A DNA stretch of 40,925 bases from Rathayibacter sp. SD072 (lineage in GTDB: Bacteria > Actinomycetota > Actinomycetes > Actinomycetales > Microbacteriaceae): the NCBI RefSeq assembly GCF_017355185.1, contig NZ_JADILJ010000035.1:1-40925 (forward strand). The letters are read 5' to 3'. Below are positions 616 to 7,223 of the stretch, one piece after another. Positions within the stretch are counted from its first letter, which is position 1. Every line of letters begins with the position of its first letter. Made by a program: the position numbers and the translations under genes. Below the pieces are notes generated by a model. The model saw nothing but the letters and a program-made list of their open reading frames with translations, ran no database searches and was not told the origin of the DNA.

Positions 616-804
616 CTCCGACCCGCCCGCGGGGCTGCCGACCGAGATCCGGGATAGGCTTGACGACCGGGACGGGACCAGGCGACGAGGCCGGTCCTCA
701 CGGGCGAGGACGACGTTCTCGCAGGTGAGGTGCAGGCATCGAGGGATGCGCGGGCCCGTCCGGATGATCGAGGACGAATCAACGGAGAGAGTGGGCGATC
801 GGCT

Positions 805-3800
805 GTGTCGAGCCAATTGACCGGAGTGGGAACAGACCAGGGCGCGGAGGACTTCGGGGCCAACGAGTGGCTCGTGGAGGAGCTGTACGAGCAGTACAGC
901 GCCGACAAGGCCTCCGTGGACGAGTCCTGGTGGCCGATCCTGGAGCGCTACGGTCAGCAGCTGGCGGCGAAGTCGCCCGCCGCGGCAGCGCCTGCGGCCC
1001 CGGCCGCTCCGCCCCCCGCCGAGAAGCCCGCCGCGGCCGGCCCGTCGACGAGCGCAGGCGGTGCGGTGACCCATCCCGTCACCTCGCAGCAGCCGGGCGC
1101 CGCCCCCGTGTCGCGCACCACGTCCCAGGAGCCCAAGAAGGCCCCGATCCCCGCCGATGCACCCGTGGGCACGCCCGCCGCGGCCGAGGCGGAGGCGCAG
1201 GAGGAGGACGTCGTCACTCCCCTGCGCGGCATGGCGAAGAGCCTCGCGACCAACATGGACGCGAGCCTCACCATCCCCACCGCCACGAGCGTGCGCACGA
1301 TCCCGGCGAAGCTGATGATCGACAACCGCATCGTGATCAACAACCACCTGCGCCGCACGCGCGGCGGCAAGGTCTCGTTCACCCACCTGATCGGCTGGGC
1401 GCTCATCCGCGCGCTCAAGGACTTCCCGAGCCAGAACGTCTACTACGACGAGCCCGGCGGCAAGCCCTCGGTCGTCGCGCCGGCGCACGTCAACCTCGGC
1501 ATCGCGATCGACATGCCCAAGCCCGACGGCACCCGCGCGCTGCTCGTCCCGAGCATCAAGCGCGCCGACACCCTGAGCTTCACCGCCTACCTGTCGGCCT
1601 ACGAGGACCTCGTCAAGCGCGCCCGCGGCAACAAGCTCGTCGCCGGCGACTTCGCCGGGACCACCCTGTCGCTGACCAACCCGGGCGGCATCGGCACGGT
1701 CCACTCCGTGCCCCGCCTGATGAAGGGCCAGGGCTGCATCATCGGCGCCGGCGCGCTGGAGTACCCGGCCGAGTTCCAGGGCTCGTCCGAGAAGACGCTC
1801 ATCGAGCTGGGCATCGGCAAGACGATCACGCTCACCTCGACCTACGACCACCGCGTCATCCAGGGTGCGGGATCGGGCGAGTTCCTCAAGATCGTGCACG
1901 AGCTGCTGCTCGGCGGCCGCGGCTTCTACGAGGACATCTTCGCGGCGCTGCGCATCCCCTACGACCCGATCCACTGGTCGACCGACATCGCCGTCGACCT
2001 CGCCGAGCGCGTCTCGAAGACCTCGCGCGTGCAGGAGCTCATCAACTCGTTCCGCGTCCGCGGCCACCTCATGGCCGACGTCGACCCCCTCGAGTACGTG
2101 CAGCGATCGCACCCCGACCTCGCCATCGAGAGCCACGGGCTCACCTTCTGGGACCTCGACCGCGAGTTCGTGACCGACGGCTTCGGCGGCAAGCGCCAGC
2201 TCAAGCTGCGCGACATCCTCGGCATCCTGCGCGACTCCTACTGCCGCACCGTCGGCGTCGAGTACATGCACATCCAGGATCCGGAGCAGCGGGCCTGGAT
2301 GCAGCAGAAGCTCGAGCGCGGCTACGAGAAGCCAGGCCACGACGAGCAGCTGCGCATCCTCGGCCGCCTCAACGAGGCCGAGGCCTTCGAGACCTTCCTG
2401 CAGACGAAGTACGTCGGCCAGAAGCGCTTCTCGCTCGAGGGCGGCGAGTCGCTCATCGCCCTTTTGGACGCCGTCCTCCAGGGCGCCGCCGACGAGAAGC
2501 TGGACGAGGTCGCGATCGGCATGGCGCACCGCGGTCGCCTGAACGTGCTGACCAACATCGCCGGCAAGACCTACGGCCAGATCTTCCGCGAGTTCGAGGG
2601 GACCCAGGACCCCAAGACGGTCCAGGGCTCCGGAGACGTGAAGTACCACCTCGGCACCGAGGGCACGTTCCGCGGCGCCGGCGGCGAGGAGATCCCCGTC
2701 TACCTGGCGGCGAACCCCTCCCACCTCGAGGCCGTCAACGGCGTGCTCGAGGGCGTGGTCCGCGCCAAGCAGGACCGCAAGCCCATCGGCACCTTCACCA
2801 CCCTGCCGATCCTCGTCCACGGCGACGCGGCGATGGCGGGCCAGGGCGTGGTCGTCGAGACCCTGCAGATGTCGCAGCTGCGGGCCTACCGCACCGGCGG
2901 CACGATCCACATCAACATCAACAACCAGGTCGGCTTCACCACGCCTCCCCACGAGGCGCGCACCTCGATCTACTCCACCGACGGCGCGAAGACGATCCAG
3001 GCGCCGATCTTCCACGTGAACGGGGACGACCCCGAGGCCGTGGTCCACGTCGGCCAGCTCGCCTTCGAGTACCGCCAGCGGTTCCACCGCGACGTGGTCA
3101 TCGACCTCATCTGCTACCGCCGCCGCGGTCACAACGAGGGCGACGACCCCTCGATGACGCAGCCGCTGATGTACAGCCTGATCGAGGCCAAGCGCTCGGT
3201 GCGCAAGCTCTACACCGAGGCTCTCATCGGGCGCGGCGACATCAGCCAGGAGGAGTACGACCGCTCGCACCAGGACTTCCAGGACCGCCTGGAGCGCGCC
3301 TTCGCCGAGACCCACGCGGCGCAGACCGGGGCGATCCCGGTGATCTCGCCCGATGGCGACTCCGTGGCGGACCTCGAGCTGCCGGACGCGCAGCAGGGCG
3401 AGGACTACCCGGGCGAGCCCGAGAGCACGGGCGTGAAGGAGGAGGTCGTCCGCCTGATCGGCGACGCCTTCAACAACCCGCCCGAGGGCTTCACCGTGCA
3501 CCCCAAGCTCCAGCAGCTGCTGGCCAAGCGCCAGGAGATGAGCCGTTCCGGCTCCATCGACTGGGCGTTCGGCGAGCTGCTCGCGCTCGGCTCGCTCCTG
3601 ATCGAGGACACTCCGGTGCGCCTCGTCGGCCAGGACACCCGCCGCGGCACCTTCGTGCAGCGCCACGCGGTGCTGCACGACCGCGGCAACGGCCAGGAGT
3701 GGCTGCCGCTGATGAACCTGTCCGAGCAGCAGGCCCGCCTGTGGATCTACGACTCGCTGCTGTCGGAGTACGCGGCGATGGCGTTCGAGTACGGCTACTC

Positions 3801-4575
3801 GGTCGAGCGCCCCGACTCCCTCGTTCTGTGGGAGGCGCAGTTCGGCGACTTCGCCAACGGCGCCCAGATCGTGATCGACGAGTTCATCTCGTCGGCCGAG
3901 CAGAAGTGGGGCCAGCGCTCGTCGCTCGTCCTGCTGCTGCCGCACGGCTACGAGGGTCAGGGCCCCGACCACTCCTCCGCCCGCATCGAGCGCTACCTGC
4001 AGATGTGCGCCGAGAACAACATGACGGTCGCCCGCCCCTCGACCCCGGCGTCGTACTTCCACCTGCTGCGCCGTCAGGCCTACTCGCGCCCGCGCCGGCC
4101 CCTGATCGTCTTCACTCCGAAGGCGATGCTGCGACTGCGCGGAGCGTCGAGCGCCGTCGAGGACTTCACCTCGGGCCGCTTCGAGCCGGTGCTGGACGAC
4201 GCGCGGGTGCAGGACGCCTCCGCCGTCAAGCGCGTGCTGCTGCACGCCGGCAAGGTGCACTACGACCTCAAGGCGGAGCTCGAGAAGAAGCCGGACGACG
4301 GCATCGCCCTCGTGCGCCTCGAGCAGTACTACCCGGCTCCGATCGAGGGGCTGCGCGCGATCGCGGAGCGCTACCCCGACGCGGAGCTGGTGTGGGTGCA
4401 GGACGAGCCCGAGAACCAGGGCGCCTGGCCGTTCATCGCGCTCGAGGTCGCTCCGCAGCTCGGCCGCCCGATCCGGGTCGTGTCCCGTCCGTCGGCGGCG
4501 TCCCCCGCCGCCGGATCGGCCAAGCGCCACGCCTCGGAGCAGGCCGACCTGCTGTCGAGGGCCCTCACCCGCTGA
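805..4575 (+). CDS. kgd: Multifunctional 2-oxoglutarate dehydrogenase/decarboxylase E1 with fused succinyltransferase (E2) domain, Kgd
   Basis: Protein of 1256 aa, close to mycobacterial Kgd. It converts 2-oxoglutarate toward succinyl-CoA in the TCA cycle with TPP and Mg. Order of parts: an N-terminal E1o segment (about 10-45, EDFGANEWLVEELYEQY); an Ala/Pro-rich linker (about 55-130); an E2 acyltransferase core without a lipoyl domain (about 135-360, active-site DHRVIQG with His349); and the E1 TPP region (about 370-1256), with MAHRGRLNVLTN near 573 and GDAAMAGQG near 673. The GTG at 805 (MSSQLTGVGTDQ) is chosen because the conserved N-terminus begins there and GGAGAGAG lies upstream at 784-791. 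The frame stays open to a GTG at 730, but those 25 extra residues look unlike the family. The gene is monocistronic and convergent with rsrA across a large hairpin. The actinobacterial fused E2-E1 layout is normal here. GarA-type control is known in mycobacteria, but garA is not in the window. Confidence 0.95.
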   Translation: MSSQLTGVGTDQGAEDFGANEWLVEELYEQYSADKASVDESWWPILERYGQQLAAKSPAAAAPAAPAAPPPAEKPAAAGPSTSAGGAVTHPVTSQQPGAAPVSRTTSQEPKKAPIPADAPVGTPAAAEAEAQEEDVVTPLRGMAKSLATNMDASLTIPTATSVRTIPAKLMIDNRIVINNHLRRTRGGKVSFTHLIGWALIRALKDFPSQNVYYDEPGGKPSVVAPAHVNLGIAIDMPKPDGTRALLVPSIKRADTLSFTAYLSAYEDLVKRARGNKLVAGDFAGTTLSLTNPGGIGTVHSVPRLMKGQGCIIGAGALEYPAEFQGSSEKTLIELGIGKTITLTSTYDHRVIQGAGSGEFLKIVHELLLGGRGFYEDIFAALRIPYDPIHWSTDIAVDLAERVSKTSRVQELINSFRVRGHLMADVDPLEYVQRSHPDLAIESHGLTFWDLDREFVTDGFGGKRQLKLRDILGILRDSYCRTVGVEYMHIQDPEQRAWMQQKLERGYEKPGHDEQLRILGRLNEAEAFETFLQTKYVGQKRFSLEGGESLIALLDAVLQGAADEKLDEVAIGMAHRGRLNVLTNIAGKTYGQIFREFEGTQDPKTVQGSGDVKYHLGTEGTFRGAGGEEIPVYLAANPSHLEAVNGVLEGVVRAKQDRKPIGTFTTLPILVHGDAAMAGQGVVVETLQMSQLRAYRTGGTIHININNQVGFTTPPHEARTSIYSTDGAKTIQAPIFHVNGDDPEAVVHVGQLAFEYRQRFHRDVVIDLICYRRRGHNEGDDPSMTQPLMYSLIEAKRSVRKLYTEALIGRGDISQEEYDRSHQDFQDRLERAFAETHAAQTGAIPVISPDGDSVADLELPDAQQGEDYPGEPESTGVKEEVVRLIGDAFNNPPEGFTVHPKLQQLLAKRQEMSRSGSIDWAFGELLALGSLLIEDTPVRLVGQDTRRGTFVQRHAVLHDRGNGQEWLPLMNLSEQQARLWIYDSLLSEYAAMAFEYGYSVERPDSLVLWEAQFGDFANGAQIVIDEFISSAEQKWGQRSSLVLLLPHGYEGQGPDHSSARIERYLQMCAENNMTVARPSTPASYFHLLRRQAYSRPRRPLIVFTPKAMLRLRGASSAVEDFTSGRFEPVLDDARVQDASAVKRVLLHAGKVHYDLKAELEKKPDDGIALVRLEQYYPAPIEGLRAIAERYPDAELVWVQDEPENQGAWPFIALEVAPQLGRPIRVVSRPSAASPAAGSAKRHASEQADLLSRALTR

Positions 4576-4576
4576 G

Positions 4577-4653
4577 CTCCGGCTCGTGAAACGACGTTCG
4601 GCTCGTCAGAACCTCAAGTTCTGACGAGCCGAACGTGTTCCTGCGAGCCGGAG
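4577..4653. terminator. Two-tier palindrome between convergent kgd and rsrA (probable bidirectional terminator or REP-like element)
   Basis: The inner stem is a perfect 19-bp inverted repeat (4594-4612 with 4618-4636) around the 5-nt loop CTCAA. Outside it a second perfect 10-bp pair (4577-4586 with 4644-4653, CTCCGGCTCG/CGAGCCGGAG) is separated from the inner stem by 7-nt internal loops. It starts directly after the kgd stop codon. There is no U-tract on either strand, so classical intrinsic termination is not assured. The motif GGCTCGT occurs in both tiers, which hints at a mobile or repetitive palindromic unit. Confidence 0.7.
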
Positions 4654-4749: not shown

Positions 4750-5013
4750 CTACGCGCTGACGGACGCCGTCGAGTGCGTCGCCTGCGCGTCGCGCAGCAT
4801 GCCGAGCACCTGGGCGCGGAGGTCCTCCGGCGCCGTCTCCTTGCACGCGCGCTGGACCGCGACGGTCAGCACGACGCCGACCTTCGCCTCGCCGGAGCAG
4901 TCCGGGCAGTTCGCCATGTGCTCGCGGATGTCGGCGGCGTCCTCCTTGCACAGCTCGTTGTGCAGGTACTCCTCGAGTTCTGCCTTCGCCTTGGTGCAAC
5001 CGCAGTCGGTCAT
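4750..5013 (-). CDS. rsrA: Zinc-binding anti-sigma factor of the RsrA/RshA family
   Basis: Protein of 87 aa that binds SigR in the reduced state and releases it when its thiols are oxidised. The ZAS motif is present: His32-x3-Cys36-x2-Cys39 ([10 protein letters not shown]). Extra cysteines at 4, 6, 22 and 57 include the N-terminal pair expected in the RsrA type. The start ATG (5013-5011) overlaps the sigR stop as ATGA, so translation is coupled to sigR. GGGAG lies about 8 nt upstream inside sigR. Partner and role follow from the gene pairing and the cysteine pattern; the metal site is inferred from the family. Confidence 0.93.
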
Positions 5014-5825
5014 TTCGTGCTCCCGGAAGTGAAAGCGGCGCGGAACCCGCGCTCGCGTGCGTAGTCGGTGAGTCGTTCGCGCAGCATGCGGCGGCCGCGG
5101 TGCAGCCGGCTCATGACGGTCCCGACGGGGGTCTTCATGATGTCCGCGATCTCCTGGTAGGAGAATCCCTCGACATCGGCGAAATACACGGCGAGCCGGA
5201 AGTCCTCCGGGATCGCCTGCAGGGCCTCCTTGACGGCGGTGTCGGGGAGGTGGTCGATCGCCTCGGCCTCCGCCGAGCGGCTCGAGGTGGCCGTCGTCGA
5301 CTCGGCACCGCCCAGCTGCCAGTCCTCGAGCTCGTCGATGGCGCTCTGGTACGGCTCGCGCTGCTTCTTGCGGTACGAGTTGATGAAGGTGTTGGTGAGG
5401 ATCCGGTAGAGCCACGCCTTGAGGTTCGTGCCCTGCTCGAACTGGCGGAACGCTCCGAAAGCCTTGGCGAACGTCTCCTGGACGAGGTCCTGGGCGTCCG
5501 AGGGGTTCTTCGTCATCCGCAGACCGGCCGCGTAGAGCTGGTCGATGAAGGGGAGAGCCTGCTGCTCGAAGAGCGCGCGGAGGTCGACGGGGGCGTCGGG
5601 CTCGACGGTCGCGGCGTCGTCGAGGGACTCCTCGACGGTCTCCTCGATCGTCTGCTCCGCCTCGTCGGGCGCCGGCGCCTCGGCGGCGGTGCGGGGGCGT
5701 GTGGTGTCGTCGCGTGTCATCACAAGCGATCCTAAGCCGCGGGGGCTCGCGAGCACCGGGGTTGCCACTGCGCTCGGGAGCCGCGGGGGACGCTCGAGGA
5801 CCGCTTCCGCTGATGCTGACGCCAT
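5010..5825 (-). CDS. sigR: ECF RNA polymerase sigma factor SigR/SigH (thiol-oxidative stress), with long and short start options
   Basis: Two starts are plausible. The ATG at 5825 has an excellent GGAGG 6 nt upstream and gives 271 aa. The ATG at 5720 (MTRDDTTRP) gives 236 aa and carries a -10-like TAGGAT 8 nt before it. The conserved sigma body follows both: region 2 ([17 protein letters not shown], then [20 protein letters not shown]) and region 4 with a helix-turn-helix ([20 protein letters not shown]). Between the two starts lies a low-complexity extension of 35 residues. In Streptomyces coelicolor, σR is likewise made as a stable short form and an unstable N-terminally extended form from an autoregulated promoter, and this layout matches. 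The downstream partner is rsrA (ATGA overlap). The gene is divergent from aroA. Targets would be thioredoxin and other thiol-homeostasis genes, by family knowledge. Confidence 0.93.
5729..5734 (-). promoter_or_regulatory. Putative sigR promoter p1 -10 (leaderless short form)
   Basis: TAGGAT on the minus strand fits TANNNT and ends 8 nt before the internal ATG at 5720. It would produce a leaderless mRNA encoding only the 236-aa form. No convincing -35 is seen. Confidence 0.4.
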
Positions 5826-5853
5826 GCTCCGCCTCCGTTCCTCCCCTGCCGAC

Positions 5854-5859
5854 TATCCT
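5854..5859 (+). promoter_or_regulatory. Putative -10 element of aroA (leaderless)
   Basis: TATCCT on the plus strand stands 8 nt before the aroA ATG at 5868. aroA has no Shine-Dalgarno in this gap, so a leaderless transcript is likely. The element overlaps the initiation region of the sigR p2 promoter on the opposite strand. Confidence 0.4.
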
Positions 5860-5862
5860 GAT

Positions 5863-5888
5863 AACCGATGGTCTTCTCGCGTTATTCC
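5863..5888 (-). promoter_or_regulatory. SigR-type autoregulatory promoter p2 of sigR
   Basis: On the minus strand GGAAT (5888-5884) is followed by exactly 18 nt and then GTT (5865-5863). This is the consensus recognised by SigR/SigH sigma factors (GGAAT-N18-GTT). Predicted transcription starts near 5855, about 30 nt before the ATG at 5825, whose GGAGG lies in the leader. The element overlaps the 5' end of aroA on the other strand. Confidence 0.75.
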
Positions 5889-7223
5889 GCTCCCGAGTTC
5901 GATCCGTACGGCGACGCCCGCGCGCTCCCCGGAGAGGACGACTGGTCGGCGCCCACGGCACCCGGTGCGCTCGACGCGGTCGTCGAGCTCCCCGGCTCCA
6001 AGTCGCTGACGAACCGCGAGCTCGTGCTGTCGGCGCTCGCCTCGGCTCCGTCGACGCTCCGCGCACCGCTGCACTCCCGCGACAGCGCACTGATGATCGA
6101 GGCGCTCCGGTCGCTCGGCACCGGGGTGAGCGAGTCGGGCGCGACCGGCGCGTTCGGCGCCGACCTCGTCGTCGATCCCGCCGACGAGCTGCTGGGCTCC
6201 ACGACGATCGACTGCGGACTCGCGGGCACGGTCATGCGCTTCGTCCCGCCGCTGGCGGGACTGGCGCTGGGTCCGACCACCTTCGACGGCGACGCGTACG
6301 CCTACAAGCGGCCGATGGGCGCGACGATCGCGTCCCTCCGCTCCCTGGGCGTCGATGTGGCCGACGACGGCCGCGGCTCCCTCCCCTTCACGGTGCACGG
6401 CTCCGGCTCGGTGCGCGGCGGCGATGTCACCGTCGACGCCTCCCGCTCGAGCCAGTTCGTCTCGGCGCTGCTGCTCGCGGGCGCCCGCTTCGACGAGGGC
6501 CTGCACCTGCGCCACGTCGGCGACCGCCTCCCCAGCCAGCCGCACATCGACATGACGATCGCGTCCCTCGCGGCGCGCGGTGTCGTCGTCGGCACGCCGG
6601 CTCCCGGCGAGTGGACGGTCGAGCCCCAGGAGATCTCGGGGGCCGACGTGCTGCTCGAGCCCGACCTCTCGAACGCCGCGCCCTTCCTGGCCGCGGCGCT
6701 CGTGACGGGCGGCCGGGTGCGCCTGCGCAACTGGCCCGCGACCACGACGCAGGTCGGCGCCCACCTCGAGCGCTTCCTCCCCCTCTTCGGCGCGACGGTC
6801 GAGCGCGACGGCGGCGACCTCGTCGTCACCGGCGGCGCCGAGATCCTCGGAGTCGACCTCGACCTGTCGGAGGGGGGCGAGCTCGCTCCGGCCCTGGCCG
6901 CACTGGCCGCACTCGCCTCGACTCCGAGCACGCTCACCGGCATCGGCCACATCCGGCACCACGAGACCGACCGCCTCGCCGCCCTCGCGGCCGAGATCAC
7001 CGGCCTCGGCGGCTCCGTCACCGAGCTCGAGGACGGCCTGCGGCTCGAGCCCGCCCCGCTCCACGGCGGTCGCTGGCGCACCTACTCCGACCACCGCATG
7101 GCCCACGCCGGAGCGATCATCGGACTGGTCGTGCCCGGAGTGGCGATCGAGGACATCGCGACGACGTCCAAGACCCTCCCGCAGTTCCCCGAGCTGTGGC
7201 GCGCACTGGCGGGATCGGTCTAG
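5868..7223 (+). CDS. aroA: 3-phosphoshikimate 1-carboxyvinyltransferase (EPSP synthase)
   Basis: Protein of 451 aa, normal length. It transfers enolpyruvyl from PEP to shikimate 3-phosphate in chorismate synthesis in the cytosol. Visible motifs: LPGSKSLTNR (41-50, Lys45 binds substrate); DCGLAGTVMRF in the PEP-binding loop; the S3P-contacting SSQFVSALLLAG; a catalytic Asp in EPDLSNAAPF; RHHETDRLAAL; and C-terminal DHRMAHAGAI. About 30 residues precede the fold. It is the first gene of aroA-rsgA-bcp, with rsgA starting 2 nt after its stop. It is divergent from sigR with interlocking promoters. Confidence 0.95.
   Translation: MVFSRYSAPEFDPYGDARALPGEDDWSAPTAPGALDAVVELPGSKSLTNRELVLSALASAPSTLRAPLHSRDSALMIEALRSLGTGVSESGATGAFGADLVVDPADELLGSTTIDCGLAGTVMRFVPPLAGLALGPTTFDGDAYAYKRPMGATIASLRSLGVDVADDGRGSLPFTVHGSGSVRGGDVTVDASRSSQFVSALLLAGARFDEGLHLRHVGDRLPSQPHIDMTIASLAARGVVVGTPAPGEWTVEPQEISGADVLLEPDLSNAAPFLAAALVTGGRVRLRNWPATTTQVGAHLERFLPLFGATVERDGGDLVVTGGAEILGVDLDLSEGGELAPALAALAALASTPSTLTGIGHIRHHETDRLAALAAEITGLGGSVTELEDGLRLEPAPLHGGRWRTYSDHRMAHAGAIIGLVVPGVAIEDIATTSKTLPQFPELWRALAGSV

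Follow-up and report, generated by a model that had tools for sequence, protein, structure and literature searches.

A 40,925-nt stretch of DNA from Rathayibacter sp. SD072 (hereafter the window, with locus coordinates counted from its first letter) carries a gene for a SigR/SigH-type sigma factor, sigR, which is followed by a gene for an RsrA-like anti-sigma factor and has the aroA gene as its divergent neighbour (Table 1). The sigR product scored 310.1 bits against the SigH_actino profile TIGR02947, above the curated cut-off of 251.55. Two promoter patterns accompany two in-frame sigR starts: a SigR-type promoter, P2, precedes a Shine-Dalgarno-led start of a long form, and a second promoter, P1, lies between this start and that of a short form. 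A two-isoform system like that of sigma-R and sigma-R' is on this evidence well supported, and the whole is probably a control region of the sigma-R/sigma-R' type, with the added feature that P2 and the promoter of the divergent aroA gene interlock.

Table 1. Features of the sigR control region and the adjoining genes, in window coordinates
Feature	Position	Strand	Basis or remark
aroA, 3-phosphoshikimate 1-carboxyvinyltransferase, divergent neighbour	5868..7223	+	TIGR01356, 343.8 bits (cut-off 287.25)
P2 -35 element GGAAT (SigR type)	5884..5888	-	complement lies in aroA codons 6-7 (Tyr-Ser)
aroA start codon	5868..5870	+	inside P2 spacer
P2 -10 element GTT	5863..5865	-	18-nt spacer
aroA -10 element TATCCT	5854..5859	+	8 nt before aroA ATG, on predicted P2 start
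Predicted P2 transcription start zone	5852..5857	-	from GTT position
In-frame TAG stop	5853..5855	-	bounds long reading frame
Shine-Dalgarno GGAGG of long form	5832..5836	-	6 nt before ATG 5825
sigR long isoform, 271 aa, 35-residue N-terminal extension	5010..5825	-	reading frame and TIGR02947
P1 -10 element TAGGAT	5729..5734	-	8 nt before short-form ATG 5720
Predicted P1 transcription start, G	5721..5721	-	one-nucleotide leader, inferred
sigR short isoform, 236 aa	5010..5720	-	in-frame ATG
RsrA-like anti-sigma factor	4750..5013	-	start overlaps sigR stop; TIGR03988 and HMANCPDC motif

For comparison, a family set was assembled from the best 80 of 578 relatives found by a protein search (mostly titled Microbacteriaceae) and from 15 genomes of the same genus, each of which has the sigR gene. 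After removal of two duplicates (L122 and L123) and of a locus whose contig ends upstream (L080), the set held 92 loci including the window's own. Outside the family, the sample comprised 29 loci of the same order, drawn from 16 further families, and 31 loci from the rest of the class, drawn from 20 families. With the window's own family the order sample covers 17 families, and two more families with a match were left out (f40, where the match was distant, and f46). In two of the same-genus genomes (G005 and G014) the sigR match was split into two frames (L124/L126 and L125/L127); either an assembly error or genuine damage may be the cause.

Two conserved promoter patterns ahead of sigR

The preliminary description of the window had placed a GGAAT, an 18-nt spacer and a GTT upstream of the long form, and all were found at those positions. 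GGAAT-N18-GTT has one exact match in the window against 0.10 expected, and because at least one match was also obtained in 10 of 100 shuffles, this match taken alone is weak, or suggestive at best. The promoter is made secure by its conservation, with GGAAT-N17-19-GTT occurring no more than 450 nt ahead of the sigR core in 92/92 family loci (66 loci have an 18-nt spacer, 20 a 19-nt and 6 a 17-nt spacer). Loss of the N18 pattern in close relatives, which had been named as grounds for abandoning the claim, was not seen, the pattern being kept in each of the 15 same-genus genomes, the window's own among them. The GTT lies 37 nt before the ATG at 5825, and transcription should begin ∼6–11 nt past it, so the leader before that ATG would be ∼30 nt long.

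The two start codons are also as described: the first has its GGAGG 6 nt upstream, the second follows in frame after 35 codons, and the lengths given for the two products were correct. Shine-Dalgarno-led starts between P2 and P1 were found in the sigR frame in 72/92 family loci (9 and 5 in the other frames). Between the long start and the P1 hexamer no stop was met in 2019 in-frame codons, against 21 in 1941 and 63 in 1932 codons of the other frames, although this count is partly circular, the 72 long starts having been selected as open. The peptides often share an N-terminal box, and a loose motif for it, [ASTVIL].?[LV][ED][RAHTK], was present in frame in 52/92 loci, compared with 4 and 2 in the other frames. 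The comparison demonstrates, at the level of sequence, that the extension is used as coding sequence. As a guess, the N-terminal box is a candidate degron.

As for P1, every one of the 92 family loci has a TANNNT that ends exactly 8 nt before an in-frame ATG, and the short start is ATG in all of them. At 173 in-frame ATGs, one single TANNNT occurred at any other gap within 2–15 nt, while at 69 off-frame ATGs gaps of 8 and 6 were seen once each and a gap of 12 eleven times. After mononucleotide shuffling, TANNNT stood at gap 8 for 0.47% of ATGs. The hexamers were TAGACT (49 loci), TAGAAT (16), TAGGAT (14), TAAGCT (8), TAAGAT (3) and TACACT (2), and a profile of the 92 loci contained no conserved -35 element for P1. 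The separate promoter that had been suggested for the short form, with TAGGAT correctly located in the window, is supported by comparison.

The statement that ATG 5720 lacks a Shine-Dalgarno sequence is not absolute, because TAGGAT contains AGGA 9 nt before the ATG. Shine-Dalgarno-like 4-mers lying 4–10 nt before the short ATG were present in 14 loci, exactly those with TAGGAT. The window and these 13 others would fit a different explanation, in which the P2 transcript alone matters and the short form, if made, comes from internal initiation with AGGA as a weak Shine-Dalgarno sequence. We regard this as very unlikely, since the other five hexamers bring no such 4-mer and the 78 loci that carry them nevertheless retain the initial TA, the final T and the gap of 8 nt, which would be expected of a -10 element and not of a ribosome site.

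It could also be argued that selection acts on the extension as a peptide and so preserves the hexamer and the ATG, that there is no promoter, and that the long form alone is used. The hexamer does lie in the extension frame, where it often reads Leu-Asp-Trp, Val-Asp-Trp or Leu-Glu-Ser. In this frame it imposes an NTA codon in 92/92 loci, whereas NTA makes up 0 of 514 NTN codons in four coding stretches of the window (aroA, the sigR core, rsrA and the gene at 730–4575), and the constraint on P1 thus acts on DNA and not on peptide. The wobble position directly ahead of the short ATG holds G in 90/92 loci and A in the other 2. Common synonyms would be allowed under selection for peptide, and we give this explanation hardly any credence.

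The aroA overlap and the patterns in other families

Within 5854–5888 of the window, P2 on one strand interlocks with the start codon and -10 element of aroA on the other, an arrangement that the preliminary description had missed. Across the family, a CAT lies within the P2 spacer in 89/92 loci and is an in-frame, open aroA start in 87. The same 87 loci have TANNNT 7–9 nt before the aroA ATG, the exceptions being L043, L068, L089, L101 and L102. The aroA hexamer sits +3 to +11 past the P2 GTT, on the expected beginning of the P2 transcript. Of the 89 loci that have CAT in the spacer, 85 encode Tyr-Ser at aroA codons 6–7 through the complement of the P2 -35 element. An aroA match was found in the stretch examined in 20 of the 60 other-family loci, and because none of these was nearer than 714 nt upstream of the sigR core, the interlock seems to be specific to the window's family.

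Because the P2 spacer holds the aroA ATG and the predicted P2 start falls on the aroA -10 element, occupation of one promoter would be expected to shut out the other, as there seems to be hardly any room for two polymerases. The overlap might instead be mere compaction without regulatory effect, as dense gene packing can juxtapose promoters without function and the exclusion is itself read from sequence. This is a serious possibility, against which we lean only slightly: the interlock has been kept in 87/92 loci across the family, in a geometry that apparently leaves no space for a second polymerase.

The P1 geometry extends beyond the family. TANNNT-N8-ATG was found in 29/29 order loci and in 12/31 class loci, and in the order loci TANNNT occurred at no other gap within 2–15 nt of 68 in-frame ATGs and at none of 67 off-frame ATGs. 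The geometry was not found in the four class loci of family f6. In the four class loci of f21, also without it, the short start resembles the Streptomyces GTC layout (GAGGAGGTG...GTC; GTT in L177). A relaxed P2 pattern, GGAA[TC]-N17-19-GTT, was present in 26/29 order loci and in 28/31 class loci, where some matches may be due to chance.

Among the 26 order loci that have P2, 11 (L150, L152, L155-L159, L162, L165-L167) carry an open in-frame ATG or GTG exactly 9 nt past the GTT, as do 6 of the 28 class loci, with 0 and 1 off-frame, respectively. Because of this position, the long form itself looks leaderless in those 11 order loci. In the window's family such a start codon was found in 2/92 loci, with 6 off-frame, and it may be that the aroA interlock displaced an earlier long start that was leaderless from P2.

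Proposed control of the two isoforms

Conservation of both promoter patterns and of both starts, a coding extension and the overlap with aroA are established by the comparison of loci. On the model built from them, P1, having a -10 and no conserved -35 element, would be read by housekeeping RNA polymerase, and the basal transcript would have its 5' end at ATG 5720 or 1 nt before it and would give the short sigma-R. On oxidation of RsrA, free sigma-R would fire P2, and the P2 transcript, with its Shine-Dalgarno-bearing leader, would give the long form. A polymerase at P2 or at the aroA promoter would block the other. We infer the actual 5' ends, the sigma specificity and the promoter exclusion from the patterns and their geometry, and instability of the long form is presumed by analogy with Streptomyces.

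Several observations weigh against this model. No transcript or protein data were found for these species, and the 92/92 counts are not 92 independent events, because the loci share kinship. In 20/92 family loci there is no start meeting the Shine-Dalgarno rule used. The body of the extension is fast-evolving, and its codon-position differences (68:53:92 over 439 codons) give a modest coding signal from 21 of 22 pairs, which share members, one pair having been dropped for want of a Shine-Dalgarno-led start. G+C content by codon position is 0.76/0.63/0.79 in the extension versus 0.71/0.45/0.87 downstream. The P1 geometry is missing from 19/31 class loci, and the pyrimidine-purine pair at -2/-1 of the short ATG, found in 11 of the 12 class loci with the geometry, occurs in 25 and not all of the 29 order loci. 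The RsrA-like protein scored 54.6 bits against TIGR03988 (E 8.9e-15), under the 62.5-bit cut-off. Finally, TANNNT-N8-ATG is not enriched in the window's own genome (42 matches, 49 for the reversed-pattern control), which puts the P1 gap outside the enriched spacing.

The enriched gaps between TANNNT and ATG in this genome are 6 nt (296 matches versus 82 for the control) and 7 nt (176 versus 33). In three other-family genomes, gap 6 gave 100, 173 and 191 matches against 44, 57 and 131 for the control, and gap 8 gave 52, 42 and 64 against 35, 51 and 94, a small excess in one of the three. These counts place the general leaderless spacing of the window's genome at 6–7 nt, and the sigR P1 is a conserved exception to it. 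Because gaps 6 and 7 are enriched and gap 8 is not, and because the short ATG is preceded by a pyrimidine at -2 and a purine at -1 in 92/92 family loci, a one-nucleotide leader appears likelier for the short-form transcript. A start 7–8 nt past the hexamer, combined with the pyrimidine-purine preference, leads to the G before the ATG as the predicted first base, and the leader is predicted to be 0–2 nt.

The short form had originally been described as the product of its own, leaderless promoter. A separate promoter is supported by comparison, and strict leaderlessness is doubtful since gap 8 lacks genome-wide enrichment. A transcript starting at the A of ATG 5720 would be in keeping with the apparent abundance of leaderless genes in this genome at gaps 6 and 7, with the precedent of Mycobacterium tuberculosis (PMC3898074), and with the C that precedes the short ATG in 4/29 order loci. 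We think it rather improbable, as the excess at gap 8 is missing in the own genome and inconsistent in the three others, and the invariant pyrimidine then purine in the family favours initiation one base upstream. We also considered a leaderless start at the GTG at 5723, which follows the hexamer by 5 nt, and rejected it as the conserved start, this GTG preceding the ATG in just 52/92 loci.

The invariant 8-nt gap could serve as a built-in brake. In this tentative scheme, which we consider rather unlikely, the P1 gap, being 1–2 nt longer than that of leaderless genes, would produce a G-AUG mRNA that is poorly translated, keeping sigma-R below RsrA, the role taken by the GTC start in Streptomyces. 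A further layer would have been added in the Microbacteriaceae, where the aroA -10 element would have displaced the older long start and sigma-R at P2 would shut the aroA promoter, such that thiol stress lowers entry into aromatic synthesis.

Related systems and neighbouring genes

Two-isoform sigma-R control as a kind is already known; its marks also include Clp degradation of an unstable long form and induction of P2 by diamide. In Streptomyces, a SigR-dependent promoter, sigRp2, leads to a long, short-lived form, and the short form comes from sigRp1, with a AGGAGGTG site, and from a GTC start limited by IF3 (PMC5472188, PMC4921905). Streptomyces coelicolor sigR shares with the present locus a SigR-dependent upstream promoter for the extended form, a long start between the two promoters and an overlapping rsrA downstream. 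The extension is 58 or 55 residues there versus 35 here (PMC5472188, PMC4921905). The short start differs more: in S. coelicolor it combines an extensive Shine-Dalgarno sequence with GTC, whereas here an ATG directly adjoins the promoter and in most loci lacks a Shine-Dalgarno sequence. An AT-rich WblC site lies beside the sigRp1 -35 element, whereas the profile of the 92 family loci has no AT-rich column upstream of P1 and no WblC-type stretch between -60 and -20 relative to the short ATG. The overlap of P2 with aroA is a further difference from S. coelicolor sigR.

Other actinobacterial systems offer partial parallels. The M. tuberculosis sigE gene has three promoters, of which a leaderless one is SigE-transcribed, and makes isoforms (PMC10027907, PMC3898074). 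There, as is proposed here, alternative promoters set the translation mode (leaderless or other) and the N-terminus of an extracytoplasmic function (ECF) sigma factor. The assignment differs, the SigE-transcribed promoter being leaderless and a SigH-dependent promoter leading to shorter forms, whereas the SigR-type promoter of the window would lead to the longer form. M. tuberculosis SigH is a SigR homologue with 72% identity (PMC4921905), and its gene has promoters sigHp1 and sigHp2, with a SigH consensus of GGAAYR-N17-GTT (PMC4921905, PMC4803200). Corynebacterium glutamicum sigH is in a sigma/anti-sigma operon of the type seen here and has leadered SigA-type promoters (PMC3489674).

Among the open-licence literature matches listed, none concerned, by title, start-site maps for Microbacteriaceae or Micrococcales; none of the SigR/RsrA literature named Microbacteriaceae; and for sigR with aroA or a divergent promoter, or with leaderlessness, PMC4921905 alone was on topic by title. 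The present combination of an aroA overlap with an ATG held at 8 nt from a -10 element was not found among the matches listed. The loop worked out in Streptomyces with its odd GTC start would have here a different short-form layout, kept at every locus sampled in the 17 families of the order. Its exact 8-nt placement permits a direct test of start-site position versus sigma/anti-sigma ratio, and the interlock with aroA offers a simple case where a stress sigma factor could repress a metabolic gene via an occupied start.

RsrA proteins are recognized by an HX3CX2C zinc motif and by a gene overlapping the sigR stop. Both were read from sequence at the present locus, the motif as HMANCPDC.

In the window's own genome, GGAAT-N17-19-GTT had 48 matches versus 3 for the reversed pattern. 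Thirty of the 48 sites were fetched, and 10 downstream genes were hand-picked for plausible placement. SufB, ErpA and MsrB were above their cut-offs among these 10, and others were two luciferase-like monooxygenases and one TIGR03086 metal-binding protein, with weaker relatives of N-ethylmaleimide reductase, a metal P-type ATPase, RclR/FtrA regulators and a sugar acetyltransferase. The sites before the ErpA, SufB and MsrB genes hint at the SigR regulon of the genome, and the downstream set, hand-picked as it is, fits a thiol-stress sigma factor on sequence grounds. L006, L010 and L017 are among the loci with GGAAT-N17-19-GTT sites, which precede ErpA, SufB and MsrB genes.

Past rsrA, between convergent genes, an inverted repeat was found at 4600–4630 of the window. 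Its 13-bp arms match perfectly around a loop of 5 nt, and it may be a terminator shared by these genes.

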